Shown: positions 7,614 through 21,940 of the stretch, piece by piece | Layout of the letters: each line of letters starts with the position of its first letter | Position numbering within the stretch: the stretch's first letter is position 1 | Virus record (IMG/VR): IMGVR_UViG_3300033995_000890 | Span: 1-21,940 of that record | Reading direction: 5' to 3' (one strand) | DNA length: 21,940 bases | From: a virus | Translations under genes and position numbers: made by a program | The notes under the pieces: model-generated | The model's database searches: none | Told to the model about the DNA's origin: nothing | What the model saw: the letters and a program-made list of their open reading frames with translations, nothing else

Positions 7614-8360
7614 ATGGTAAAATCTGGAATATACAAAATAACAAATGAAATAACTGGAAAATTTTATGTCGGATCTTCTATAGATATAGATCAGCGTTTT
7701 TTGGATCACAGGAGGGATTTAAACAATAAAACTCATGTAAATATAATATTACAACGCTCGTGGGAAAAGCATGGCGAAAAAGCATTTTCTATCGCAATAT
7801 TAGAAGAATGTTCTCCGGAAAAGTGCTTTGAAAGAGAACAATATTATCTAGACACACTTCAACCATATAAATCAATCGGGTATAATATTGGAAAACATGC
7901 CGGTGGGGGTGACAATTTTACACACAATCCAAACAAAGAATCTATGCGAGAAAAAAACAGACTGATGTCGTCGGGAGAAAATAATGCAATGTTTGGAAAA
8001 AATCACACAGACGAATCAATAGAAAAACTTAAAAACAAAGCAAAAGGTCGTTTTTCTCTTGAATGGTTTGTAGAACGAAATGGTCAAGAAATTGGTACTC
8101 AAAAATATCAAGAACGTCGTAAAATGCTATCATCTCGTAAAATCAATTATAGCCACGTAAATAAAAATAAAGGAAAAAAGATCGTTGTAGAATCGACTAG
8201 AGGAGATAGTGTGAGCCGTGGAAGAAATGCACTAAAAGGTAGAAAAGAAGAATTTTTACTTGATATATCTAATCAAGAATTGTCTAGTAAACAGATTGCT
8301 GACAAGTATGGAATATCAACTGCGGCAGTAAAGTATCACAGAAACAAGTTGAAAAAGTAA
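7614..8360 (+). CDS. GIY-YIG homing endonuclease, free-standing (Seg-like)
   Basis: 248 residues. The GIY-YIG nuclease domain is at residues 1-95: G5-I6-Y7, Y18-V19-G20, catalytic-type Arg28, and Glu75 in FEREQYYLD, matching the Arg and Glu of this family. Residues 118-146 (SGENNAMFGKNHTDESIEKL) are a NUMOD3-type DNA-binding module found in such enzymes. The C terminus (about 214-248, LLDISNQELSSKQIADKYGI) is a helix-turn-helix. These enzymes cut DNA of related phages lacking the gene and spread it by recombination. It stands alone just after the capsid terminator, as T4 seg genes stand between late genes. The ATG forms TATTTATGG with the upstream T-run and has no Shine-Dalgarno. AT-rich codons differ from the capsid gene next to it, which fits independent acquisition. 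Confidence 0.93.
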   Translation: MVKSGIYKITNEITGKFYVGSSIDIDQRFLDHRRDLNNKTHVNIILQRSWEKHGEKAFSIAILEECSPEKCFEREQYYLDTLQPYKSIGYNIGKHAGGGDNFTHNPNKESMREKNRLMSSGENNAMFGKNHTDESIEKLKNKAKGRFSLEWFVERNGQEIGTQKYQERRKMLSSRKINYSHVNKNKGKKIVVESTRGDSVSRGRNALKGRKEEFLLDISNQELSSKQIADKYGISTAAVKYHRNKLKK

Positions 8361-8367
8361 CCGTATA

Positions 8368-8383
8368 TATAATATATATTATA
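8368..8383 (+). promoter_or_regulatory. 16-bp AT palindrome before the nuclease gene, possible -10 element
   Basis: TATAATATATATTATA is a perfect palindrome ending 2 bases before ATG 8386, and it begins with a sigma70-like TATAAT. No -35 is obvious. It could drive the nuclease gene separately, or be chance in AT-rich DNA. Confidence 0.25.
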
Positions 8384-8385
8384 CC

Positions 8386-9180
8386 ATGCTTATGAAGAAA
8401 ATATATTACTATTCATTGTGTTTGTTAACATTGGTTACTGTTTTGGTTGCCAATCCAATTGATGACAAAGCATCTCAATTTGTTGTGAATGGTGCGCCAA
8501 TCAGCAAAATTGTAAAAGATACTCAGTATATAATCAAAAAGAATTATGCTATACATTATCGCTATGATACCAAAACAGCTGAATATGTTGTAGAACATCC
8601 AACACTTGAAAAGATCAATGGAAAATCAAAACGTAAAGATGATTTTAGACCAGACCCAGAAATAGCAAAGCAACATCAATCATTATTAAGTGATTATGCT
8701 GGAAATCCATTTGATCGTGGTCATCTTGTGCCTGCTGGAGACAATACTCAAAATGATGATGTTATGAGTGAAAGTTTCTTTCTTTCTAATATGGTTCCTC
8801 AAGTTCCTAATCATAATAGAGGAATTTGGAAACAATTGGAAACTGCTGTTAGAAATTGGGTAATTGAAGGCAAAGATGTATATGTTATAACTGGCACATT
8901 TTATAACAAAGGATATAAAGAAATTGGTAATAACAAAGTTGGTATTCCAGATTATATGTGGAAAGTTATTGTAGATTCAAAATCAAACAAGGGTATTGCA
9001 TTTATGTTTCCTAATGCTCCACTGCCAGTTGAAGACCTTCATAAATATATTGTATCTATATCAGAGATAGAAGTCAAGACTGGAATAAATTTCAATCCAA
9101 AGTTGCCAGAAAAACAACAAAATGAATTGGAAAAGTCAAAAGCAGATCAAAAAGATTGGTCTAGCTTAACAAAGAAATAA
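8386..9180 (+). CDS. Secreted DNA/RNA nonspecific endonuclease (DRGH, Serratia nuclease/EndA type)
   Basis: 264 residues (262 if ATG 8392 is used, which gives MKKIYYYS and a cleaner signal peptide). Residues 1-22 are a Lys-Lys start plus a hydrophobic stretch (LCLLTLVTVLVA), a likely Sec signal with cleavage near residue 22. The nuclease core has FDRGHLVPAGD with D110-R111-G112-H113 (His113 general base), then N144-R-G-I-W-K-Q-L-E152; the Asn-to-Glu spacing of 8 equals N119/E127 of the Serratia enzyme, whose Asn binds Mg. Expected activity is Mg-dependent cutting of DNA and RNA outside the cytoplasm. A secreted form is unusual next to phage structural genes: it would avoid the phage genome inside the cell and act in periplasm or medium. 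It converges with the lysozyme gene with 1 base between the stops. Confidence 0.9.
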   Translation: MLMKKIYYYSLCLLTLVTVLVANPIDDKASQFVVNGAPISKIVKDTQYIIKKNYAIHYRYDTKTAEYVVEHPTLEKINGKSKRKDDFRPDPEIAKQHQSLLSDYAGNPFDRGHLVPAGDNTQNDDVMSESFFLSNMVPQVPNHNRGIWKQLETAVRNWVIEGKDVYVITGTFYNKGYKEIGNNKVGIPDYMWKVIVDSKSNKGIAFMFPNAPLPVEDLHKYIVSISEIEVKTGINFNPKLPEKQQNELEKSKADQKDWSSLTKK

Positions 9181-9181
9181 T

Positions 9182-9838
9182 TTAACCAGCTGCTTTAAAT
9201 ACAGCAGCGTTCCAGTCCATACGTTTTTTTACACCACGATTGTTTGTGCTGCGATATTCTCTGTGGTTTAAATATTCCTTTGCAGCATCAGCAAACTTGT
9301 TTTGGTTCAACAACTTTATTGTTTTTGGTCCCATGTCACCACGATATAATGCATTGATTGTTGCAATTCTCACGGTTAATGGCATACTATCAAATTTTTC
9401 TATATGTTTTTTGGCAACATCAATCTTTTTATTAGCGTCTTTTTCAAGTAATTTCAATGCATCATCGTCAGTTATACCTTTGCTAAAATCTTCATTTGGT
9501 TGAATTTTGTGACCATAAGCAATTGTGTCACTGCCGCCTTCAACACTTTTATGTGGAAACCATAATTTCTTGACTTTATTATATCCACCTTTTGGATTGT
9601 TGATGTTGTTTTCAAATTGCTTGATTATATTCACAGCGCGAGTTGTTAAGTCGCCTGTGTCTCCTCTGTCGCTAAAATCAATATTATGCTGAGTATATGG
9701 CTTTCCTGCGCCATCCCCCGCTGGCTGTGCATATGCATGTTGTGCGGGAGGTGCAACAAGTTTGACTGGCGGTAAATCTGCCACGGCTTCAATGAGTTTT
9801 TGTTCATGTAACAGATCTTTCAGTTTTATTATACGCAT
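9182..9838 (-). CDS. Tagged lysozyme (GH24, T4-lysozyme-like)
   Basis: 218 residues and the only convincing minus-strand gene. Residues 1-20 (MRIIKLKDLLHEQKLIEAVA) form a charged helix with L-H-E|Q and L-I-E|A steps, like the tags of the head genes, not a signal peptide. Residues 21-60 are Pro/Ala-rich linker. The lysozyme domain starts at about 64: IIKQFEN with catalytic-type Glu76, an insertion GGYNK..KLWFPHKS, then EGGSDTIAYGHKI, where T105 and G109-H110 match the T-I-G-x-G-H strand of T4 lysozyme. The aspartate equivalent to D20 is shifted (E100 or D104). The C-terminal helices contain TINALYRGDMGPKT and end NRGVKKRMDWNAAVF. Expected role is cutting peptidoglycan, at lysis or, if the tag packages it, at infection. 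Confidence 0.85.
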   Translation of the reverse strand: MRIIKLKDLLHEQKLIEAVADLPPVKLVAPPAQHAYAQPAGDGAGKPYTQHNIDFSDRGDTGDLTTRAVNIIKQFENNINNPKGGYNKVKKLWFPHKSVEGGSDTIAYGHKIQPNEDFSKGITDDDALKLLEKDANKKIDVAKKHIEKFDSMPLTVRIATINALYRGDMGPKTIKLLNQNKFADAAKEYLNHREYRSTNNRGVKKRMDWNAAVFKAAG

Positions 9839-9925: not shown

Positions 9926-11143
9926 ATGCCCGACACAAGTATAAATTACAATATTGATTCTGACAGAGTACGCTGGCCTGGTTCTGGCTCCGCTATCACA
10001 ACCGGAAGTACTCCATTTGGATTTTATGAAACCGACTCGCAATTCATATCAGAAGCACCAAATGCTGCCAGATGGGCAGCAACTCGTTTGGGTTATCCCA
10101 TTGTTGATATTGAAATGATAGACATAAATTTTTATGCATGTTTTGAAGAAGCTGTGAATGAATATGGAGCACAAGTAAATCAATTTAATATTCGTAATAA
10201 TATTGGTGTGCTACAAGGAACTTCCGCAAATGTAAATCTTACTCAAACAAATGTGGCTGGCAGTGGATTGCCACAACTCATAAAATTAGCTAATGGATAT
10301 GGCACAGAGTTTGGTGTGGGTGGAAATGTGGATTGGAAAAAAGGTTATGTTGATGTTCAAAAAGGACAACAATCATATGATCTACAAGCATTGTGGGGAG
10401 ATGTGAGTGAAAGTTTTGATAGAATTGAAATTCGCAGAATTTTTCATAACTCACCTCCAGCATCCGCTCGTATATATGATCCATTTAGTATGACAGGTAT
10501 GAGTTACAGCAATGTATTAAATGAAATGGGATTTGCTGGTTATTCTCCTGCTACTCAATTTTTGATGACACCAATATTTGAAGATTTGTTGCGTATGCAA
10601 GCAATTGAGTTCAATGATTTGGTTCGTAAATCTGGATATAGCTTTGAATTGGTTAATAATAAAGTAAAAATATTTCCAATTCCTACTTATGACTACAAGA
10701 TGTATTTTGAGTATCTGCTTGTTAAAGACAGAGACAGTCAGGGCATTTATAATTCTGGTTCATTTTATACAGCAAGCGGTTCGTATGTTTCTTCCAATAC
10801 CATTGGAGATTATAGCAATGTTCCATACAATAATATTCCATACAGTGGCATCAATAGTGTTGGCAAGCAATGGATAAGAAAATACTTTTTAGCATTGTGC
10901 AAAGAACTATTGGGCAGTATTCGTCAAAAGTATCAAACGATTCCAATACCAGGTGCAGAAGTTACATTGGATGGTGCTGAACTGCGTCAAGAAGCATCTG
11001 CTGAAAAAACAGATTTGATTACACAGTTGAGAGAGAATTTAGAAGCAACTGGTCGCAAGGCTCAGATGGAAATGCGTGAAGCAGAAGCACAACAGATGTT
11101 ATCCACTCTACAAAAAGTTCCGCTTGGAATTTATATTGGTTAA
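9926..11143 (+). CDS. Neck protein (T4 gp13-like candidate)
   Basis: 405 residues; T4 gp13 is about 309. The N-terminal block FGFYETDSQFISEAPNAARW, LGYPIVDIEMIDINFYACFE, EAVNEYGAQVNQFNIRNN (residues 31-95) is a pattern I associate with the gp13-type neck protein of aquatic T4-like phages, from memory. Further regions: YDLQALWGDVSESFDRIEIRR, a loop DPFSMTGMSYSNVLNEMGF, PIFEDLLRMQAIEFNDLVRK, and a Gly/Ser/Tyr-rich insertion at about 270-312. The C-terminal part (WIRKYFLALCKELLGSIRQK, PIPGAEVTLDGAELRQEA) ends in a charged helix. Neck proteins cap the portal after DNA packaging and form the tail docking site. It starts the right-hand operon, and the following genes are spaced by 3-8 bases. Confidence 0.65.
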   Translation: MPDTSINYNIDSDRVRWPGSGSAITTGSTPFGFYETDSQFISEAPNAARWAATRLGYPIVDIEMIDINFYACFEEAVNEYGAQVNQFNIRNNIGVLQGTSANVNLTQTNVAGSGLPQLIKLANGYGTEFGVGGNVDWKKGYVDVQKGQQSYDLQALWGDVSESFDRIEIRRIFHNSPPASARIYDPFSMTGMSYSNVLNEMGFAGYSPATQFLMTPIFEDLLRMQAIEFNDLVRKSGYSFELVNNKVKIFPIPTYDYKMYFEYLLVKDRDSQGIYNSGSFYTASGSYVSSNTIGDYSNVPYNNIPYSGINSVGKQWIRKYFLALCKELLGSIRQKYQTIPIPGAEVTLDGAELRQEASAEKTDLITQLRENLEATGRKAQMEMREAEAQQMLSTLQKVPLGIYIG

Positions 11144-11146
11144 AAA

Positions 11147-11554
11147 ATGAAACCTTTTTCTATATTAGATATGATAATGTCCAAAGGTGAAAGACGACGA
11201 CTAAAGTATGTTGGTGTGAAGAAAACTATGAAGCCGCCAACAAATTTTACTTCATTAGAAATAAAGTATTATAATATGCTTGATGAAATTGGTGTGTATT
11301 TTATTCATCAATATCCAATGGGTGGTAGATTTTATGATGCATATCTGCCAGATGAAAATATTTTATTTGAATTTGATGGAGCATTTTGGCATCCAAAAAC
11401 TGCTGAAGATGCAAAGTATATATTTCAAAAAAAGAGTATGAGAGTAGATGAGCTAAAAAATAAAATAGCTGCTGATAAAGGATACAAAATTATTCGCATA
11501 CGCGAAGATGAACCAATCACATCAGAACAAATGAAAAAGTTGATATTTCCATAA
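11147..11554 (+). CDS. Vsr-like (EDxHD/DUF559-type) nuclease
   Basis: 135 residues. The core RFYDAYLPDENILFEFDGAF and WHPK shows D64 on one strand and E75-F-D77-G-x-x-W-H82 on the next; the D-G-x-F-W-H style is typical of Vsr mismatch nucleases and related EDxHD homing enzymes. D101 in RVDELKNKIAADKGYKIIRI completes the set, with E37 in the N-terminal helix as a candidate first acidic residue. The basic N terminus (KGERRRLKYVGVKK) could bind DNA. Such small nucleases are found in phages as free-standing homing endonucleases. It is wedged between two structural genes with 3- and 6-base gaps and the same direction, so it is co-expressed late. A repair role is an alternative. Confidence 0.78.
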   Translation: MKPFSILDMIMSKGERRRLKYVGVKKTMKPPTNFTSLEIKYYNMLDEIGVYFIHQYPMGGRFYDAYLPDENILFEFDGAFWHPKTAEDAKYIFQKKSMRVDELKNKIAADKGYKIIRIREDEPITSEQMKKLIFP

Positions 11555-11560
11555 AAGTAT

Positions 11561-14311
11561 ATGCCAATAAAATATTTAAATAGAAGTAATATACCAACTG
11601 TTTTAGCAGGAACTCAAAAAGCAATATTTGGGTATGGAGCTACAAGTGTCGCTGTTTCAATGACAAATCTTGTTAGTAACACGGGTGTAGTAGCAACAGA
11701 CACGACGGGTGTTGGAACGGCAAGATATTCTCTAGCCGCAGCGGGTTATGGTACAGACAAAGCAATATTTGGATACGGATACTCAACCACATATGTTTCA
11801 ATGACCAATCTTGTAAGTGATACAGGAGTTGTATCAACTGATACAGCCGGTATTGGTACGGCTAGATATGAATTAGCAGCAGCAGGTTATGGAGTGGGCA
11901 AAGCTATATTTGGATATGGAAGGACGGCTAGTGGTACAGCAACAACCAATCTGGTAAGTAATACAGGTGTTGTGGCGAGTAATACAACGGGTGTTGGCAC
12001 AGCCAGATTTCAACTAGCAGCGGCGGGTTATGGAAATGACAAAGTTATATTTGGATATGGAACCACGGGCACTGTTACGGCAGTAACCAATCTCGTAAGC
12101 AATGCGGGTGTAGTAGCAACAGACACGACGGGTGTTGGAACAGCAAGACAAGGTCCAGCAGCAGCCGGTTATGGTAGTGACAAAGCAATATTTGGGTATG
12201 GATATACCGCCGCTGCTTATGCGTCAATAACCAATCTTGTAAGTAATACAGGTGTAGTGGCAACCGATACAACTGGCGTTGGCACAGCCAGATATATATT
12301 AGCCGCAGCAAGTTATGGATCAGATAAAGCTATATTTGGATATGGAGATAATGGTCCGGTTCTATCAATGACCAATCTGGTAAGCAACACTGGTGTTGTA
12401 GCAAATAACACAACGGGCGTGGGAACAGCAAGATATGGTCTAGCAGCGGCGGGATTTTCAATAACTACAATACCAGCGCCCGGTGGAATAAAATATAAGA
12501 ATATTAGTAATGTTCCAACTACACAAAAAGCTATATTTGGGTATGGGTATAGTGGCGGCAATGTTTCAATGACCAACCTTGTTAGCAACAATGGTGTTGT
12601 AGCAAATGATACAACGGGTGTTGGTACTGCGAGATATCTACTAGCAGCGGCGGGGTATGGCACCGACAAAGCTATATTTGGATATGGACAAAATGGTTCT
12701 GTCGTATTTTCAATGACAAATCTGGTTAGTAATACGGGCGTCGTAGCAAATGACACGACCGGCGTGGGTACAGCAAGAAATCAAATAGCGGCGGCTGGGT
12801 ATGGTACTGACAAAGCAATTTTTGGATATGGAAACAACGCTGTGGTCGATCAGTCAGTGACCAACAAAGTAAGCAACACCGGCGTTGTAGCAACTGATAC
12901 AGCGGGAGTTGGTACAGCAAGACCCGCTCTAGCAGCAGCTGGCTATGGAACCGATAAAGCTATATTTGGTTATGGATATGTTACTTTATCAATGACCAAT
13001 CTAGTAAGCAACACTGGTGTTGTATCAACAGACACAACAGGTGTTGGAACGGGTAGATCATATCCATCGGCAGCGGGTTATGGGTCAGATAAAGCTATAT
13101 TTGGATATGGATATAATGGCTCTGTCACATTTTCAATGACCAATCTTGTTAGTAATACAGGCGTTGTAGCAACCGATACAACTGGCGTTGGAACGGCGAG
13201 GAGTGGTTTGGCAGCAGCGGGCTATGGATCAGACAAAGCTATATTTGGATATGGACAAAATGGCGCAACTTACTACTCAATGACAAATCTTGTAAGCAAC
13301 ACAGGAGTTGTAGCAACAGATACAACGGGGGTTGGTACAGCAAGAGCCGCTCTAGCAGCAGCAAGTTATTCAAGTTCAATACCAGCACCAAGTGGATTAA
13401 AATTTAGAAAAGTATTTGCTGATCCTATTATTGTATCAGGAACACAAAAAGCTATATTTGGATATGGAGATAATAGTTCCGTTTTAACTACAATCACAAA
13501 TCTTGTAAGTAATACAGGTGTTGTAGCAGCTGACACAACGGGGGTTGGAACTGGGAGACGTGGTTTAGCAGCGGCTGGTTATGGAAGTGACAAAGCAATA
13601 TTTGGATATGGATATAATGGCACTACACATTATTCAATGACAAATCTTGTTAGTAATACGGGTGTTGTAGCAACAGACACGACCGGTGTCGGTACGGCGA
13701 GACAAATTCTAGCAGCGGCGGGTTATGGAACAGACAAAGCACTGTTTGGATATGGTACGGTAGGTTTTACAACATTTTATTCAATAACTAATCTGGTAAG
13801 CAACACAGGTGTTGTATCAAATGACACAACGGGTGTTGGCACATCTAGATTTGGTCCAGCAGCTGCTAGTTATGGAACAGATAAAGCTATATTTGGATAT
13901 GGATATAATGGTATAGGTTTATCAATGACCAATCTTGTAAGTAACACCGGTGTTGTATCAAATGATACAGCGGGTGTTGGGACTGCAAGGTGGGTCTTGG
14001 CGGCGGCAGGTTATGGAACAGACAAAGCACTATTTGGATATGGATATAATGGTTCTGTCGGAGTATCAATGACCAATCTTGTAAGTAATACAGGTGTTGT
14101 AGCCACAGACACGACTGGTGTTGGTACTGGGAGAGATTCTCTTGCAGCGGCGGGTTATGGTAGTGATAAAGCAATATTTGGGTATGGATATACCACGGTT
14201 GCAGTTTCAATGACCAATCTTGTAAGTAATACTGGTGTTGCAGCAAATGACACAACCGGTGTTGGAACGGCAAGATTTGGTCTAGCAGCAGCAGGATACT
14301 CACTAACATAA
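11561..14311 (+). CDS. Giant repeat adhesin: three six-bladed propeller-like blocks
   Basis: 916 residues made of 18 repeats of 45-49 residues in three groups of six: residues 20-302, 323-607 and 630-916. Each repeat reads KAIFGYG, a variable stretch of 5-9 residues, then S-x-TNLVSNTGVV, xxDTTGVGTAR, 2-3 variable residues, and LAAAGYG[TS]D. The groups are joined by linkers of about 20 residues (IPAPGGIKYKNISNVPTTQ and IPAPSGLKF...), and residues 1-19 resemble the same linker. Sets of six with a short four-strand-like repeat suggest kelch/RCC1-like beta-propellers. Similar FGYG/FGGG repeats occur in aquatic phage proteins (from memory). No signal peptide. Between neck genes it is probably a virion-borne receptor or glycan binder. 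The gene has no Shine-Dalgarno; the ATG is 6 bases after the nuclease stop. Confidence 0.85.
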   Translation: MPIKYLNRSNIPTVLAGTQKAIFGYGATSVAVSMTNLVSNTGVVATDTTGVGTARYSLAAAGYGTDKAIFGYGYSTTYVSMTNLVSDTGVVSTDTAGIGTARYELAAAGYGVGKAIFGYGRTASGTATTNLVSNTGVVASNTTGVGTARFQLAAAGYGNDKVIFGYGTTGTVTAVTNLVSNAGVVATDTTGVGTARQGPAAAGYGSDKAIFGYGYTAAAYASITNLVSNTGVVATDTTGVGTARYILAAASYGSDKAIFGYGDNGPVLSMTNLVSNTGVVANNTTGVGTARYGLAAAGFSITTIPAPGGIKYKNISNVPTTQKAIFGYGYSGGNVSMTNLVSNNGVVANDTTGVGTARYLLAAAGYGTDKAIFGYGQNGSVVFSMTNLVSNTGVVANDTTGVGTARNQIAAAGYGTDKAIFGYGNNAVVDQSVTNKVSNTGVVATDTAGVGTARPALAAAGYGTDKAIFGYGYVTLSMTNLVSNTGVVSTDTTGVGTGRSYPSAAGYGSDKAIFGYGYNGSVTFSMTNLVSNTGVVATDTTGVGTARSGLAAAGYGSDKAIFGYGQNGATYYSMTNLVSNTGVVATDTTGVGTARAALAAASYSSSIPAPSGLKFRKVFADPIIVSGTQKAIFGYGDNSSVLTTITNLVSNTGVVAADTTGVGTGRRGLAAAGYGSDKAIFGYGYNGTTHYSMTNLVSNTGVVATDTTGVGTARQILAAAGYGTDKALFGYGTVGFTTFYSITNLVSNTGVVSNDTTGVGTSRFGPAAASYGTDKAIFGYGYNGIGLSMTNLVSNTGVVSNDTAGVGTARWVLAAAGYGTDKALFGYGYNGSVGVSMTNLVSNTGVVATDTTGVGTGRDSLAAAGYGSDKAIFGYGYTTVAVSMTNLVSNTGVAANDTTGVGTARFGLAAAGYSLT
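11618..14308 (+). repeat. Eighteen 135-150-bp coding repeats in three blocks of six
   Basis: Block borders are 11618-12466, 12527-13381 and 13448-14308. Protein framework is nearly constant but codons differ between copies (for example AATCTTGTTAGTAACACG versus AATCTGGTAAGTAATACA), so the repeats are old or codon-diversified, not freshly copied. Variation in amino acids is confined to two short windows per repeat. Confidence 0.85.
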
Positions 14312-14319
14312 AAATTTAT

Positions 14320-14787
14320 ATGAAAGGAAGATATTTTAGCACACGCGACTTAAACTTAATCAATTCTCTTAATGGTGAATTGATGGGAAATATTATTGAA
14401 AATCTTATTCAAATATTTAAAATTTGTCCAAATGAAACCAAAACAAATATATATGGTGAAACTTCATCAGAAACTGGTAAATGGTATTTTCCAGCAGTTC
14501 AAATATCTGCACTTATTGAAAGAGCTGAAATGACGGCAGAATTTGACGATTTCGGACCAAATAGAAATCAAGATCATATTTTCAAGATGCGTGAAAAAAT
14601 GTTAAAGCAATTAGAATTTTATCCAGAAATTGGCGATGTAGTATCTTGGAATGATAGATATTATGAAATTGATAATGTAATACAAGAACAGCTACTTGGA
14701 GGTCAAAGCGACAAGAGTCATAGTATAGTTTGTAATAGTCATTATACCAAATATACATCACTCAATATAATGGAAAGAAATCAATAA
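14320..14787 (+). CDS. Neck/head-closure-like structural protein
   Basis: 155 residues, starting 8 bases after the adhesin stop. The pattern RDLNLINSLNGELMGNIIEN, NIYGETSSETGKWYFPAVQI, FDDFGPNRNQ, YPEIGDVVSWNDRYYEIDNV, then HSIVCNSHYTKYT is compact and highly conserved-looking; I recall similar proteins in aquatic T4-like phages in the neck gene cluster, but cannot name the T4 homologue with certainty (gp14 is much longer). IGDVVSWNDRYYEID resembles the beta-barrel of head-closure/adaptor proteins. A role at the head-tail joint is inferred from its place between the gp13-like gene and the next structural gene. No membrane or signal segment. Confidence 0.6.
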   Translation: MKGRYFSTRDLNLINSLNGELMGNIIENLIQIFKICPNETKTNIYGETSSETGKWYFPAVQISALIERAEMTAEFDDFGPNRNQDHIFKMREKMLKQLEFYPEIGDVVSWNDRYYEIDNVIQEQLLGGQSDKSHSIVCNSHYTKYTSLNIMERNQ

Positions 14788-14791
14788 TTTT

Positions 14792-16108
14792 ATGGCATGG
14801 CGTGGACCAACAACTAAACCAGTGGCAAATAAACCACCACATAATCCAATAAATCATGGACATGAAATGGCTGAATCTAAAAAGCCAGTAGTAGAGGCTG
14901 CTTATGGTCCAAATCACAAGCCAAATAGAGCATATGATTTACGCAGAGACACAGATACTCAAAAGAATTTTTCAGTTACACTCATTGATATTGATACTGC
15001 TATTTTAACACATCTTGATACTGTTATATCTCCTACAATAATAGATGCTGGTCGTCAAATAAAAGTGCCAATAAATTATGCTTCACCAGAAAAATGGAAA
15101 TCTATTCAACAAGATGGTGTGATCAGAGATCATAATGGTAAAATACAAACACCAGTTATTGCTTTTCGCAGAAGCACCATGCAACGCAATGATAATTTAA
15201 TTACACTCAATCGTTACTTACAATATCCAGCAGTAAAACATTTTTCTGAAAAGAATAAATATGATAGATTTTCTGCCATGTCTGGATTTATGCCTGTGAA
15301 AGAAATTTATAGTGTAGCAATGCCAGATCATGTTATTATTAACTATGAATTTATTATATGGACAGAACTGATTGAACAAGGCAATGCTGTTGTAGAAGCA
15401 ATAAATTTTGCTACAGAAGATTATTGGGGTGATAAAAATAGATTCAAATTTAGAACAAGTATCAGCGATTATAATTTTGAAACAACAAATGATGCTGGTC
15501 AAGATCGTATTGTACGCAGCACATTTAGCATGATGGTAAATGCTTATCTATTACCAGATAAATTTGAAAATTATAAATCAGTTGTTCAAAAAGCATTTAC
15601 ACCAAGAAAAGTTGTATTTGATGTTCATGAAAAAATTGTTGGTACAATTGGACAATCTGGAGAACGTACATCTGTGTCTGTTAATGATGGAAACTTGGCT
15701 GATTCAAATCAACCACCAATTTCTCAAAATATAAATTATAATATCGTAAATCAAAACAGTACATTGGAAGTGTTGAATATTGTTGGTGGAGGGGATGGTG
15801 GAGCTACTGGATCATTCACCGCAAACTCTGTAACAATTTCTGGTTCTGCTGATATAGATTCTCAATTGATTGGCGATGGAAATGCAGCAAGATGGTTGGT
15901 TTCTATTTCTAATGGATCTGACATCAAAGTTAATGAAGTTATGTCAAGTTGGAACAATGTGTCTTCCAGTTTTTATGTAACAGAAGTAAGTCAAATTGGA
16001 TATGTGCCAGTATCATTGTCTGTAAATAATGTGGGTGGTAGCATACACTTGTTGGCTACTCCTTTATCTGGAACATGGACACTTAAATATATAAAGATGG
16101 TTGTATGA
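14792..16108 (+). CDS. Conserved neck/tail structural protein with fibre-like C-terminal domain
   Basis: 438 residues. Residues 55-280 form a conserved-looking core: FSVTLIDIDTAILTHLDTVI, KVPINYASPEKWKSIQQDGV, YDRFSAMSGFMPVKEIYSV, MPDHVIINYEFIIWTELIEQ, EDYWGDKNRFKFRTSI and AYLLPDKF. I recognise this block from T4-like aquatic phages as a virion protein next to the neck genes, perhaps the tail terminator (gp15 role), unproven. After a linker (285-325) comes a separate beta-rich domain (about 345-438) with ARWLVSISNGSDIKVNEVMS, YVTEVSQIGYVPVSLSV and LATPLSGTWTLKYIKMVV, which looks like the terminal domain of phage fibre proteins. The stop overlaps the next ATG (ATGA at 16105-16108), implying translational coupling with the fibre. 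Confidence 0.65.
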   Translation: MAWRGPTTKPVANKPPHNPINHGHEMAESKKPVVEAAYGPNHKPNRAYDLRRDTDTQKNFSVTLIDIDTAILTHLDTVISPTIIDAGRQIKVPINYASPEKWKSIQQDGVIRDHNGKIQTPVIAFRRSTMQRNDNLITLNRYLQYPAVKHFSEKNKYDRFSAMSGFMPVKEIYSVAMPDHVIINYEFIIWTELIEQGNAVVEAINFATEDYWGDKNRFKFRTSISDYNFETTNDAGQDRIVRSTFSMMVNAYLLPDKFENYKSVVQKAFTPRKVVFDVHEKIVGTIGQSGERTSVSVNDGNLADSNQPPISQNINYNIVNQNSTLEVLNIVGGGDGGATGSFTANSVTISGSADIDSQLIGDGNAARWLVSISNGSDIKVNEVMSSWNNVSSSFYVTEVSQIGYVPVSLSVNNVGGSIHLLATPLSGTWTLKYIKMVV

Positions 16109-18519
16109 TTCAAAACGCATTTATAGCTTCAAATGGCTTGATTGTAAATGGAAATGCCGAAATTAACGGAGATTTGACCGTGAGCGGCTTTGCATATGCT
16201 TCATCAAGTTATGCTATCACAGCAAGTTATGCTTTGAGTTATAGTGGAACAAGTGGAACAAGTGGTGCCAACGGAAGTAGTGGTGCCAGTGGAACAGACG
16301 GCAGCAGTGGAACCAGCGGAGCCAACGGAAGTAGTGGTGCCAGTGGAACAGACGGCAGCAGTGGAACCAGCGGAGCCAACGGAAGTAGTGGTGCCAGTGG
16401 AACAGACGGCAGCAGTGGCACAAGCGGAGCCAACGGAAGTAGTGGTGCCAGTGGAACAGACGGCAGCAGTGGAACCAGCGGAGCCAACGGAAGTAGTGGT
16501 GCCAGTGGAACAGACGGCAGCAGTGGAACCAGCGGCAGCAGTGGAAACACCGGAGCCAGCGGCAGCAGTGGCACAAGCGGCAGCAGTGGAAACACCGGAG
16601 CCAGCGGCAGCAGTGGCACAAGCGGCAGCAGTGGAAACACCGGAGCCAGCGGCAGCAGTGGCACAAGCGGCAGCAGTGGAACCAGCGGAGCTGGCACCAT
16701 TTCTGGCGGAACATCTAATTATGTTGCAAGATTTACCGGTGCAACAACATTAACTACCGGTTCAATATTTGACAATGCAACAAATGTTGGCATTGGAAAA
16801 GCAAATCCAAACGCAAAACTTGATGTATACGGTGATACAATAATTACAGGTAGTTTATCAGTGACTGGGAACATTACTAATATAGGTAATGTCAGTGCAA
16901 ACAGCATAACGGTTGCTGGGCAACCAACAACTTATGGTACAGTAAATCCTGATTATATTAACGCAGGTAGAATAACTTCCGACCAAACCGGTGCAGGTTC
17001 AGGTAGTGATATTATATTTAATTATGCACCTGTAAGTAGTGGTATATCTCTTAACACATCAACGGGTGTATTCACATTAACCGCAGGTAAAACATACAGT
17101 TTATTTGCAGAATTAAGTTTCAGCAATTTTAGTGATACAGCAAATGGTTATGAAATATACGATTGGGTAGATGCAACAACAAATACTAGATTAGTCACAA
17201 CTGGTATAGGTGCTGGTATAGGTGAGAATATCAATAGAAATACAAATGAATTTAATGCAACATCTACTACTTTAATTTATACCCCAACTACAAACCAAAC
17301 TGTAAAAGTTCGTATTGTAGAGGCGGCGGGAACAGTAACTGTCAGAGCAGGTATTGGAACAAAAGCAATTATTCAACAAATAAATCCCACCATAGCTATT
17401 CAAGCAACTGCTACTGGTACGGTTAGCACGAACTATGCAAAATACACAAGGTCTGCACAACAAACTGGGTTATCAAATGGATCTGTTGTTGTTTGCAATG
17501 TGATAGAAAATGCAGGTGGATCGGCAATATCAGTCAATACAGGAAGTGGTCAAGTTACATTGTCCGCTGGTAAAACTTATAGATTAAAAGGAATGATTCC
17601 CGGTTTCACTACTAGCGGTGCGAACGTAAGACCACAGTTCTGTTGGTATAATGAAACTACATTAACATATATAGGTTCGTCTGCCGAATCATACAGTCCG
17701 AGCGATGCTGCTGGATACGGAGCATTTGGAGGCACAGCTGAAGCAATTATTACCACAGCCGCAACAACCGTGACATCGTTTAGATTATTAGCAGGTGCGA
17801 CCAATTTAGCAGGTATAGGCGGTAATGCCGATTTTTCTACTACCGGAAGTTATCCGTGGATTGACATACAAGAAATAGGATCAATCTTTGCTCTAAATGC
17901 ATTGGACACAATGACCCTAACAGGCGCTGTTTCAGCCAGCGGTAATGTAACCGGACAAAACTTAATATCATCAAACGCAAGTGGTAATGAAGGTGGAGAA
18001 ATACAACTTGCTAAATCTCCAAATAGTACCTTATCTGGAAGTAATGTTGTCATTGATCAATACATTGATAGAATTAGATTTTTTGAAAGCGGCGGTAGCT
18101 CAAGAGGTGCATATATTGATCTATCAACAGCACCGTCGGGGGTAGGTTTTTTAATTAATAATAGAGCAAGTGGTATTGTTGATGCCGGTACAGATGTTAC
18201 ATTAGGAAATTTGAAAGTAAGATTATCAACATCGGGAAATAGAAGTTTGCAAGTATCAACTGTTTCAGGAACATATTCAGTTTATGGCAGTAGTGTATAT
18301 AGTACGGGAGGTCCAGGCGGTACATCAATAACAGACAATGCGCCATTAACAATTACAACCACACCCACATATATTAATGCGGGATATAGTTTTGGGCTAG
18401 GAGGATATACTGATACTTGGTTGCTTATGTCCACGGCCAGTAACATTGCTTGGAGAATAACATTGATAGTTGGTAGTAGTTACAACAACAATATGATATG
18501 TATTGAAAGATTGGTATAA
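16105..18519 (+). CDS. Collagen-like fibre with twin C1q-like domains
   Basis: 804 residues. Residues 1-46 are a beta-rich attachment region (NGNAEINGDLTVSG, then SYAITASYALSY). Residues 47-196 are uninterrupted Gly-X-Y triplets without proline, built from five 18-residue and three 15-residue units. Residues 200-260 hold YVARFTG..TTLTTGSIFDNATNVGIG and NPNAKLDVYGD, a motif common in phage tail fibres. Two similar beta-sandwich domains follow: FTLTAGKTY at 323-331 and VTLSAGKTY at 484-492, each after a Gly/Ser/Asn-rich strand pair; order and motif recall C1q-like domains. Residues 600-804 contain further beta structure (NEGGEIQLAKSPNS, RGAYIDLSTA) and a terminal domain. A trimeric rod with binding heads is expected. 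It is coupled to the upstream neck/tail gene by overlap. Confidence 0.85.
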   Translation: MIQNAFIASNGLIVNGNAEINGDLTVSGFAYASSSYAITASYALSYSGTSGTSGANGSSGASGTDGSSGTSGANGSSGASGTDGSSGTSGANGSSGASGTDGSSGTSGANGSSGASGTDGSSGTSGANGSSGASGTDGSSGTSGSSGNTGASGSSGTSGSSGNTGASGSSGTSGSSGNTGASGSSGTSGSSGTSGAGTISGGTSNYVARFTGATTLTTGSIFDNATNVGIGKANPNAKLDVYGDTIITGSLSVTGNITNIGNVSANSITVAGQPTTYGTVNPDYINAGRITSDQTGAGSGSDIIFNYAPVSSGISLNTSTGVFTLTAGKTYSLFAELSFSNFSDTANGYEIYDWVDATTNTRLVTTGIGAGIGENINRNTNEFNATSTTLIYTPTTNQTVKVRIVEAAGTVTVRAGIGTKAIIQQINPTIAIQATATGTVSTNYAKYTRSAQQTGLSNGSVVVCNVIENAGGSAISVNTGSGQVTLSAGKTYRLKGMIPGFTTSGANVRPQFCWYNETTLTYIGSSAESYSPSDAAGYGAFGGTAEAIITTAATTVTSFRLLAGATNLAGIGGNADFSTTGSYPWIDIQEIGSIFALNALDTMTLTGAVSASGNVTGQNLISSNASGNEGGEIQLAKSPNSTLSGSNVVIDQYIDRIRFFESGGSSRGAYIDLSTAPSGVGFLINNRASGIVDAGTDVTLGNLKVRLSTSGNRSLQVSTVSGTYSVYGSSVYSTGGPGGTSITDNAPLTITTTPTYINAGYSFGLGGYTDTWLLMSTASNIAWRITLIVGSSYNNNMICIERLV
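16267..16671 (+). repeat. Near-identical 54-bp x5 and 45-bp x3 tandem repeats
   Basis: Five 54-bp units (16267-16536) encode ANGSSGASGTDGSSGTSG; units 1, 2 and 4 are identical, unit 3 differs at two bases and unit 5 at one. Three identical 45-bp units (16537-16671) encode SSGNTGASGSSGTSG. The identity indicates recent expansion or ongoing homogenisation. Confidence 0.95.
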
Positions 18520-19392: not shown

Positions 19393-21940
19393 ATGAGTCT
19401 AGACCCAAAAACCATTTACAATGTTCAGAGATCATCAGACGGTGCTGCATGGGAAGAAATATACATAAGCGGCAGCAACTTGGTATTACACACAAATGAA
19501 AATGGTGTATTAACGGGTTCTTCAGTATTGCCTGCTGCTATTACAGCAAGTTATGCTTTGACTGCATCATATGTGATTGGCGGTGGTGGAACCAATGGCA
19601 GCAGCGGCACCAGTGGAGAATCTGGATCAAGTGGAACAGACGGCAATAGTGGAACCAGTGGAACCAGTGGAGTCAACGGCAGCAGCGGCACAGATGGCGC
19701 AAGTGGAAGCAGTGGAAGCAGCGGAACCAGTGGAGCCAACGGCAGCAGCGGAACTAGCGGCAGCAGCGGTTCAAGTGGAAGCAGCGGCAGCAGCGGCAGC
19801 AGCGGTTCAAGTGGAAGCAGCGGCAGCAGCGGCAGCAGCGGCACAGGTGGTTCAAGTGGAAGCAGTGGAGCTGATGGTACTGATGGAGCAAGTTTTGATT
19901 GGGAGGGTGGGTGGTTAAGTATTTCTACATATCTAAAAAATGATGTTGTTTTTTACGAAGGAAGTTCTTGGATAGCTTTAGATAATATTTCAAGTGGTGG
20001 ACAATCACCACCACTAGCAACAGGTTCATGGTCTATCATGACCGCAGCTGGTACTTCTGGCACAGCAGGTAGTAGTGGTTCTAGTGGCACAAGTGGACAA
20101 AATGGATCTAGTGGCACTTCTGGTTCTAATGGTACAAGTGGTACTGATGGCACAAGTGGTTCAAGTGGATCTACCGGCACAAGTGGCTCGTCAGGCTCTA
20201 CAGGAACAAGTGGTTCAAGCGGAACAGACGGTTCGTCTGGCACAAGCGGTTCAAATGGCTCAAGTGGCTCAAGTGGCTCGTCAGGCACAAGCGGCACTGA
20301 TGGCACAAGTGGAACTTCTGGCACAGACGGTACGAGTGGTTCGTCAGGCACTGATGGTACAAGTGGAACTTCTGGCACAGACGGCACAAGTGGTTCGTCT
20401 GGCACAAGTGGCACAGACGGTACTTCTGGTACTGATGGAACAAGTGGCTCGTCAGGCACAAGCGGCACTGATGGTACAAGTGGAACTTCTGGCACAGACG
20501 GCACGAGTGGTTCGTCTGGCACAAGTGGCACAGACGGTACAAGCGGTTCTAGTGGAACCAGTGGCACGGATGGTACCAGTGGAACTTCTGGCACAGACGG
20601 CACGAGTGGTTCGTCAGGCACTGATGGTACCAGTGGAACTTCTGGCACAGACGGCACGAGTGGTTCGTCAGGCACAAGTGGCACAGACGGTACAAGTGGT
20701 TCTAGTGGAACCAGTGGCACGGATGGTACAAGCGGTTCTAGTGGAACAAGCGGAACAGACGGCTCTAGCGGTACAAGCGGCACAGATGGTACAAGTGGTA
20801 CAAGTGGTACAGACGGTTCGTCTGGCACAAGTGGCACGGATGGTACAAGCGGTTCTTCTGGTACAGACGGCTCTAGCGGTACGAGCGGCACAGATGGCAC
20901 AAGTGGTTCATCTGGCACAGACGGCTCGTCTGGCACAAGTGGCACAGACGGGTCGAGTGGCACAAGTGGTACTGATGGTACGAGTGGTTCTTCGGGAACT
21001 GATGGTTCAAGTGGCACAAGCGGAACAGATGGCACAAGTGGAACAAGTGGATCATCTGGCACAGACGGTTCAAGTGGAACGAGTGGTACGGACGGTTCAA
21101 GTGGAACGAGTGGTACGGACGGTTCAAGTGGAACAAGCGGAACAGATGGTTCAAGTGGAACAAGCGGAACAGATGGCACAAGTGGATCTTCTGGCACAGA
21201 CGGCTCATCTGGTACGAGCGGTACAGACGGTTCAAGCGGCACAAGCGGAACTGATGGTTCAAGTGGAACAAGTGGTACGGATGGTTCTAGCGGTACAAGT
21301 GGCACAGACGGATCAAGCGGCACAAGCGGAACAGATGGTTCGTCTGGTACAAGTGGTACGGATGGTTCTAGCGGTACAAGTGGTACGGATGGTTCTAGCG
21401 GTACGAGCGGAACAGATGGCACAAGTGGATCATCTGGCACAGACGGTTCGTCTGGTACGAGCGGTACTGATGGTACGAGTGGATCATCTGGCACAGATGG
21501 CACAAGTGGTACAAGTGGTACAAGTGGTACAGACGGTTCGTCTGGCACAAGTGGCACGGATGGTACAAGCGGTTCTTCTGGTACAGACGGCTCTAGCGGT
21601 ACGAGCGGCACAGATGGCACAAGTGGTTCATCTGGCACAGATGGCTCATCTGGCACAAGTGGTACCGATGGTTCTAGTGGCACAAGTGGTACAAACGGTT
21701 CAAGTGGAACAAGCGGAACTGATGGTTCAAGTGGAACAAGTGGCACAGACGGTTCGTCTGGCACAAGTGGCACAGACGGTTCTAGTGGAACAAGTGGAAC
21801 AGACGGTTCAAGCGGCACAAGCGGCACAGACGGTTCGTCTGGCACAAGTGGCACGGATGGTTCAAGCGGAACAAGCGGAACAGACGGCTCTAGCGGTACG
21901 AGCGGCACAGACGGCACAAGTGGTTCATCTGGCACAGACG
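19393..21940 (+). CDS. Very long proline-free collagen-like fibre, 3' end outside window
   Basis: At least 849 residues, open to the window edge. Residues 1-62 form a globular start (MSLDPKTIYNVQRSSDGAAW, EEIYISGSNLVLHTNENGVL) ending in ITASYALTASY, the same adaptor as in the 16105 fibre. Residues 66-166 are Gly-X-Y triplets rich in GSS. Residues 168-217 are a small Trp-rich domain (WLSISTYLKNDVVFYEGSSW, then SPPLATGSWSIM) resembling chitin-binding CBM5/12 folds. From residue 220 the chain is unbroken Gly-X-Y to the edge, at least 210 triplets, mostly GTS, GTD and GSS. No proline in the repeats, unlike animal collagen. Expected to be a long trimeric virion filament. Start ATG 19393 lacks a Shine-Dalgarno and follows TATTTATA (19375-19382). 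Start choice is moderate; the reading frame is certain. Confidence 0.85.
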   Translation, partial: MSLDPKTIYNVQRSSDGAAWEEIYISGSNLVLHTNENGVLTGSSVLPAAITASYALTASYVIGGGGTNGSSGTSGESGSSGTDGNSGTSGTSGVNGSSGTDGASGSSGSSGTSGANGSSGTSGSSGSSGSSGSSGSSGSSGSSGSSGSSGTGGSSGSSGADGTDGASFDWEGGWLSISTYLKNDVVFYEGSSWIALDNISSGGQSPPLATGSWSIMTAAGTSGTAGSSGSSGTSGQNGSSGTSGSNGTSGTDGTSGSSGSTGTSGSSGSTGTSGSSGTDGSSGTSGSNGSSGSSGSSGTSGTDGTSGTSGTDGTSGSSGTDGTSGTSGTDGTSGSSGTSGTDGTSGTDGTSGSSGTSGTDGTSGTSGTDGTSGSSGTSGTDGTSGSSGTSGTDGTSGTSGTDGTSGSSGTDGTSGTSGTDGTSGSSGTSGTDGTSGSSGTSGTDGTSGSSGTSGTDGSSGTSGTDGTSGTSGTDGSSGTSGTDGTSGSSGTDGSSGTSGTDGTSGSSGTDGSSGTSGTDGSSGTSGTDGTSGSSGTDGSSGTSGTDGTSGTSGSSGTDGSSGTSGTDGSSGTSGTDGSSGTSGTDGSSGTSGTDGTSGSSGTDGSSGTSGTDGSSGTSGTDGSSGTSGTDGSSGTSGTDGSSGTSGTDGSSGTSGTDGSSGTSGTDGSSGTSGTDGTSGSSGTDGSSGTSGTDGTSGSSGTDGTSGTSGTSGTDGSSGTSGTDGTSGSSGTDGSSGTSGTDGTSGSSGTDGSSGTSGTDGSSGTSGTNGSSGTSGTDGSSGTSGTDGSSGTSGTDGSSGTSGTDGSSGTSGTDGSSGTSGTDGSSGTSGTDGSSGTSGTDGTSGSSGTD
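19588..19890 (+). repeat. First Gly-X-Y repeat tract of long fibre
   Basis: About 100 codons of Gly-X-Y, with the stretch 19738-19850 made almost purely of 9-bp GSS units (such as GGCAGCAGC). This is a slippage-prone minisatellite inside a coding sequence; insertion or loss of a unit keeps the frame. Confidence 0.85.
20050..21940 (+). repeat. Main Gly-X-Y repeat array, continues past window
   Basis: A 9-bp period (Gly-X-Y) with a frequent 27-bp higher unit encoding GSSGTSGTD. Gly codons alternate GGC/GGT/GGA, Thr ACA/ACG/ACT, Ser AGT/AGC/TCG/TCT/TCA, so adjacent units are protein-identical but scrambled in DNA. Longer exact copies also occur, such as 20787-20921 and 21507-21641 (135 bp, offset 720), with a near-identical partial third copy from about 21883. 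Confidence 0.92.

Follow-up and report, generated by a model that had tools for sequence, protein, structure and literature searches.

A putative adhesin of three proposed Kelch-type propellers encoded at an exchangeable site among the neck genes of a T4-like virus

Introduction

The hypervariable scaffolds known to serve phage host recognition are mainly C-type lectin folds altered by retroelements. In the four-stranded meander of a propeller blade, the BC and DA loops emerge on the same face. In phage T4, the wac gene lies near the neck genes, in the order wac-13-14-15. Its product, fibritin, is a virion collar appendage that contacts gp15 and the long tail fibres (PMC3004832). Several described propellers are relevant to the locus reported here. 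In Keap1, the C-terminal strand serves as strand A of blade 1, and the BC and DA loops form the substrate face (PMC4668279); in KLHL20, each of the six DA loops and all but one of the six BC loops touch the ligand (PMC6720452). The PLL and PHL lectins are seven-bladed, with sites based on Trp (PMC5584973). A Kelch-like protein of a giant phage, CBB_552, has been found in the mature virion (PMC5259590). Finally, the propellers surveyed by Pereira and Lupas in 2022 have a median blade identity above 60%, a widely varying blade number and recent amplification (PMC9218822).

We analyzed a 21,940-nucleotide stretch of DNA from a T4-like water virus of bacteria (positions 1 to 21,940 of IMG/VR record IMGVR_UViG_3300033995_000890; hereafter the window) that encodes a long repetitive protein. 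We consider it probable that this protein serves as an accessory adhesin of the virion, consists of three closed six-bladed Kelch-type propellers arranged one after another, and is carried as an exchangeable module. The ring type is already known; of the family, its exchange site and its loop variation there appears to be no earlier description.

Results and Discussion

Eighteen blades in three blocks of six

The gene occupies positions 11561 to 14311 of the plus strand as a single unbroken reading frame of 916 aa, in which the motif K[AV][IL]FGYG is present in 18 copies. The copies start at residues 20, 67, 114, 161, 208 and 256 in the first block, at residues 323, 370, 418, 466, 511 and 559 in the second and at residues 630, 678, 726, 775, 822 and 870 in the third. 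Consecutive copies are 45 to 49 aa apart inside a block; the two linkers widen this distance to 67 and 71 aa. The three blocks of six Kelch-like blades, called rings below, all lie on the plus strand: ring 1 at 11618..12466 (residues 20-302), ring 2 at 12527..13378 (residues 323-606; 74% identical to ring 1) and ring 3 at 13448..14308 (residues 630-916; 72% identical to ring 1).

The repeat consensus reads KAIFGYG-W1-TNLVSNTGVVATDTTGVGTAR-W2-LAAAGYGTD, and each of the repeats is 72-85% identical to one reference repeat. W1 was defined as the stretch of 6-10 aa from FGYG to TN[LK]VS, and W2 as the two residues after GT[AGS]R. In blade 1, for instance, W1 is ATSVAVSM (BC loop; 11639..11662, plus strand) and W2 is YS (end of the DA loop; 11726..11731, plus strand). 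W1 is different in every one of the 18 blades, and W2 takes 17 distinct forms. The end of W1, usually S[MI], is semi-conserved, which leaves a truly variable part of about 5-7 residues. Translation of the reading frame thus confirmed, at the same residues, the exact 6+6+6 arrangement counted in a preliminary description of this DNA, and all 18 blades had the fixed frame with two variable segments which that description had recognized.

Ring 1 is predicted to be a closed six-bladed propeller

An AlphaFold2 model of ring 1, built on an alignment of 149 family rings, reached a pLDDT of 96.1 and a pTM of 0.93. Prediction of block 1 from the single sequence had given a pLDDT of 36 and was discarded; the 149-member alignment cured this low confidence. 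When the model was submitted to Foldseek, the top solved structures were nearly all six-bladed Kelch domains (Keap1, KLHL12, KLHL17, KLHL20 and KLHL3), with E values of about 1e-14, TM scores of 0.77-0.81 over about 295 columns and about 14% identity. The modelled chain opens with strand B (KAIFG) and closes with strand A (AAAGY), so that the final strand A completes blade 1. Ring 1 is confidently predicted to be a closed six-bladed Kelch-type propeller; the propeller reading first proposed for the three blocks was upheld for block 1, and its alternative, an open solenoid, was not borne out. In the model, W1 lies between strands B and C and W2 immediately ahead of strand A. Given this strand order and the loop usage of Keap1 and KLHL20, W1 (in the BC loops) and W2 (at the ends of the DA loops) would share one face, corresponding to the ligand face of Keap1.

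We then used an iterated profile to count the repeats of 193 distinct ORFs of IMG/VR relatives, 175 of which were not truncated by a contig end. The repeat number was a multiple of six in 168 of the 175 complete ORFs (160 single rings, the others with 12 or 18 repeats). The seven remaining ORFs include one with six repeats and an insertion (L129), two that together make up a frameshifted six (L149) and four genuine exceptions with 5, 3, 2 and 2 repeats. Six is therefore strictly held, as ring closure demands.

The predicted ring 1 thus resembles the Kelch domains of Keap1, KLHL12 and KLHL20 in its six-bladed closure and in having BC and DA loops on one face. It differs from BTB-Kelch proteins in being viral, in its near-identical blades, in having no BTB domain and in the low identity (about 14%) noted above. 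No match to the 916-aa protein was found in Pfam at E <= 10, Kelch included, and no NCBIfam model of value matched; PHROG 17682 matched at E 0.007 only. A tblastn search of INPHARED phages gave no match, a result to which the low-complexity filter may contribute. Single repeats gave no signal with Kelch, RCC1 or WD40 profiles, and when single blades were aligned by hhalign with 170 bacterial Kelch repeats, the probability was 0.2%. The only PDB family with sequence-profile similarity was that of the PLL/PHL lectins (E 3.7e-7 over five repeats). The score of 20.9 bits exceeded both the period-preserving shuffles, which reached 5.5 at most, and the other-propeller controls. The repeats of these Photorhabdus lectins, like those of the phage rings, are about 48 aa long and in the same register (..RLEVFARGTDNALWHIWQ.. 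versus ..RYGLAAAGYGTDKAIFGYG..). However, the phage rings have six blades, their framework holds no conserved Trp, and the sugar-binding Trp residues are absent. The fold is accordingly filed as Kelch-type, and the sequence family is a separate one, distantly similar to PLL/PHL. Kelch-type propellers are also known in phage from CBB_550, CBB_552 and CBB_554, but these are not reported as multi-ring, slot-based or loop-hypervariable (PMC5259590), and the sequence of the model shares 13% identity with the CBB Kelch-like protein in BFVD. The closest viral model, A0A6J7XFV6 from an uncultured Caudovirales phage, is 68% identical and belongs to the same family as the 916-aa protein, but it is a single ring of 311 aa, uncharacterised, without name or assigned function.

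Variation is focused in two segments of each blade

Column entropy over 1,122 blades from relatives rose to 3.8 bits in W1 and to 3.7 and 3.6 bits in W2, and was mostly below 1.5 bits in framework columns. The ratio pN/pS was taken from pairwise comparison without a tree. In pairs 85-98% identical at the DNA level, it was 0.30 for the framework, 2.64 for W1 and 1.81 for W2; this band is dominated by non-independent ring pairs of two contigs (L118 and L138) and so does not represent many independent events. In pairs 75-85% identical the values were 0.21, 0.90 and 1.20, respectively. Pairs at least 98% identical revealed no clear excess of W1 and W2 change over frame change, and hence no sign of ongoing hypermutation. 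When the window was compared with locus L163, which also encodes three rings, W1 and W2 were as different as those of random blades. Entropy, pN/pS and this comparison all agree with the earlier suggestion that variation is concentrated in the two segments and not spread evenly.

Among the 18 blades of the 916-aa protein, framework pN was 0.083 and framework pS 0.53, which is near saturation, whereas pN was 0.51 in W1 (pN/pS 0.92) and 0.68 in W2 (pN/pS 1.32). With synonymous sites near saturation and so low a pN, the sameness of the frame must be held by selection and not by young duplication. The phage rings share a median blade identity above 60% with the propellers of Pereira and Lupas, but differ from them in their near-invariant six and in blade synonymous sites close to saturation. 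Recent blade amplification is rejected for this protein, since framework pS is 0.53 and a blade resembles its neighbours in the same ring no more than it does the blades of a different ring. Recent blade copies were detected in a few relatives (8 pairs at least 95% identical). Whole-blade shuffling is unsupported as the main route of change, as of 35 pairs of blades with identical W1 only 3 also had W2 in common.

The restriction of variation to short segments on a fixed scaffold, together with the Mtd N-terminal domain present in some members, would be expected if a diversity-generating retroelement kept W1 and W2 variable by hypermutation, a proposal that concerns the origin of the variation and not its function. 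We regard a retroelement as a very improbable cause, since reverse transcriptase (RVT_1) was found in none of 37 carrier viral records and the codons of W1 and W2 are not solely NNC/NNT (TGG, CAA, TTA, GAG and AGG occur); the very close pairs, with no clear excess in these segments, also argue against it.

Another reading is that the rings are a structural decoration without ligand, whose loops drift unconstrained. The W1 and W2 ratios among the 18 blades are compatible with mere relaxation. In the 85-98% band, however, both ratios exceed one. Moreover, the residues of W1 and W2 carry almost no charge and are rich in Tyr, Ser, Thr, Asn and Gly, and the scarcity of charge and enrichment in Tyr are unlike free drift. 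Lectin-like LamG domains also swap into the same slots (see below). These points leave mere decoration with a low probability. The composition of W1 and W2 would instead fit binding of glycans or polymers.

The gene is one filling of a site among neck genes

As the preliminary description had it, the gene lies among neck genes. The upstream anchor is a head-tail adaptor of the Ad2 type (9926..11143, plus strand; phrog_211, E 7.5e-12). Directly upstream of the three-ring gene is a homing/HNH endonuclease-like ORF, labelled VSR, which is conserved at the site (11147..11554, plus strand; phrog_559, E 7e-13). The downstream anchor is a 155-aa neck-region gene recognized by conserved synteny, with no family match (14320..14787, plus strand). 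It is followed on the same strand by a T4 gp15-like tail sheath stabiliser (14792..16108; PF16724 at E 3e-4, below the curated cut-off) and by a collagen-repeat tail fibre-like protein (16105..18519; PF01391 at E 1e-20, and tail fibre PHROGs).

In blastn alignments, two loci (L160 and L162) pass from window position 11552 directly to 14311. The stretch they precisely miss (11553..14310, plus strand) contains only the three-ring gene, so the cassette is a single gene. Identity on the two sides of the empty junction is 93.7 and 93.4% for L160, and 91.1 and 77.4% for L162. Using Ad2 as bait, we read 80 loci of the same virus group, which gave 47 non-redundant sites: 30 were empty or held the endonuclease only, 7 held rings, 2 LamG only and 8 other content. 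Since 30 of the 47 sites are empty or contain the endonuclease only, the cassette seems dispensable for infection in general. Between the window and L163, pS was 0.475 for the ring framework and 0.10-0.35 for flanking genes; this higher divergence of the rings indicates that the cassette was exchanged or evolved apart from its flanks. Going beyond the preliminary description, these sequence comparisons identify the three-ring gene as an accessory, exchangeable cassette at the neck-gene site. It is part of the overall reading that we favour, and hold to be likely, that entire cassettes are gained, lost and swapped at this site in a T4-like virus group. The endonuclease gene stands beside 8 of 9 cassettes, yet many sites hold the endonuclease only, and in view of their number we do not claim an association between the two.

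The position of the gene between the Ad2 and gp15-like genes also raises the possibility of a neck whisker or collar appendage like T4 fibritin, which would handle tail fibres or sense conditions, its loops binding the virus's own fibres. In L078 a tail fibre is followed by three rings, then by Ad2 (gp13-like) and Hc2 (gp14-like), with gp15 further downstream, close to the wac-13-14-15 order of T4. Contacts of T4 fibritin with gp15 and the long tail fibres (PMC3004832) are in line with such a role. Fibritin is, however, a trimeric coiled coil, whereas the ring protein is predicted to be all-beta, with no coiled coil, no fibritin family match and no sequence or fold similarity to fibritin. In addition, other members are found on tail-fibre N-termini, or form several clusters on one contig, with up to 17 ring matches. 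We consider this main rival unlikely as the explanation of the protein; it is compatible with the adhesin reading, and both may be true.

Further genes were noted in this region. Three ORFs of the window (7614-9838) separate the major head protein from the neck genes. The first is a homing endonuclease (7614-8360); the second is a DNA/RNA non-specific endonuclease (8386-9180; PF01223, E 2e-51), and the third, on the minus strand, is lysozyme-like (9182-9838). L163 and L164 contain a 468-aa minus-strand ORF, absent from the window, between the 155-aa gene and gp15; by comparison of gene order, insertion into the neck cluster has also occurred at this second point. A 660-aa ORF at 19953-21935 of the window (minus strand) consists of a VPLVPLEPS repeat and is most likely the antisense reading of a plus-strand collagen-like (GTSG/GTDG) fibre gene that leaves the contig end.

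Three slot peptides precede different modules

Each ring of the 916-aa protein is preceded by a short plus-strand segment: the slot 1 peptide MPIKYLNRSNIPTVLAGTQ (11561..11617), which in relatives precedes LamG or other modules, and the conserved linkers of slot 2 (..PAPGGIKYKNISNVPTTQ; 12467..12526) and slot 3 (..PAPSGLKFRKVFADPIIVSGTQ; 13379..13447). These three peptides recur in order (M[PA][IL]KYLN..N, [GT][IM]K[YF].N..N and K[FLMI][RK]KV..D) in other viruses at the site, where zero to three modules, namely rings, LamG lectin-like domains or others, stand behind them. The slots hold ring/ring/ring in the window and L163, LamG/ring/ring in L022 and L021, LamG/LamG/ring in L194 and LamG/LamG/other in L187 and L191. 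A different repeat domain follows the slot peptides in L161, L181, L182 and L184, and no module is present in the first slots of L172 and L175. As the same ordered peptides precede different modules, the protein can be described as a three-slot carrier. No virion attachment domain was recognized in the 916-aa protein itself; the slot peptides may be virion anchors. The ring protein of L172 (11823-12926) keeps the first two slot peptides without modules. In L181 (3967-5943), L182, L184, L016 and L161, the ring is preceded in slot 1 by a different short-repeat domain (TSTDGITWTARS..YGNGLFVAV), probably a second kind of propeller.

For the adhesin reading, we propose that each ring keeps its strand frame fixed and that its six blades would present one variable face, built from their BC loops (W1) and, in the DA loops, from the inner ends (W2); the 36 segments would then make three separately tunable binding faces. 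Receptor binding is suggested by this architecture, and the ligands would most likely be glycans on the bacterial surface or other polymers of the host surface. The protein would be carried on the virion, presumably at the neck or collar, and might contribute to host range. The gene would be one filling of an exchangeable site whose slots take rings, LamG or other modules. More tentatively, the family may be a natural binding scaffold, a constant six-bladed ring with twelve variable segments on one face, used as plug-in modules by many T4-like and very large viruses and exchanged as cassettes at the neck site, where the neighbouring endonuclease gene may drive exchange by homing; we view this wider picture as possible but doubtful. 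A near-symmetric Kelch-type ring, with variation presumably on one face, no retroelement found and a swappable module, is a different scaffold from the C-type lectin folds. It offers a test case for how uncultured T4-like and very large viruses alter binding, and a means of marking adhesin genes that currently count as uncharacterised. It is also a natural counterpart of engineered symmetric propellers such as the designed SAKe protein, which was among the Foldseek matches.

Ring proteins in other viruses and in one bacterium

A scan of IMG/VR gave 381 related stretches, from which 79 loci were kept, and a second scan, started from a divergent member, gave further loci. In other viruses, comparison of domain content reveals rings fused to predicted tail-fibre and adhesin N-termini. 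The ring is joined to a Phage_T7_tail N-domain in L059 (a marginal match, E 2e-5, just below the cut-off), to Mtd_N in L027, to Laminin_G_3 in L060 and L065, and to fn3 in L018.

A search of about 85,000 species yielded a single bacterial member, which comes from a metagenome genome of the Oligoflexia (L156, 7749-8885); 143 further Oligoflexia genomes contained no ring member. The L156 ring has six blades, is 68% identical to phage rings and lies near an ABC transporter gene; it has a Tat-like signal (SRRKFF) and no virion context. This chromosomal copy with its export signal, and the fact that the nearest folds are Kelch substrate-binding domains, could suggest a secreted or intracellular effector outside the virion, whose rings bind host proteins like Kelch substrate adaptors. 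Against this, the gene of the window lies among virion genes, rings are joined to tail-fibre and Mtd N-termini and to LamG domains, and the 916-aa protein has no effector or signal domain. We judge an effector role improbable.

Ring modules number one to three per protein and up to about 17 per contig. Three loci (L015, L036 and L038) belong to one contig of 524,565 bases (IMGVR_UViG_3300027749_002876), which has 17 ring matches in several clusters, and another contig, of 170,963 bases, has 8. In L031 (1-11601), ring proteins with up to three rings have long TTTTTTAGPG mucin-like linkers, and one of them is a 1,654-aa ORF with a glycine-rich C-terminal part.
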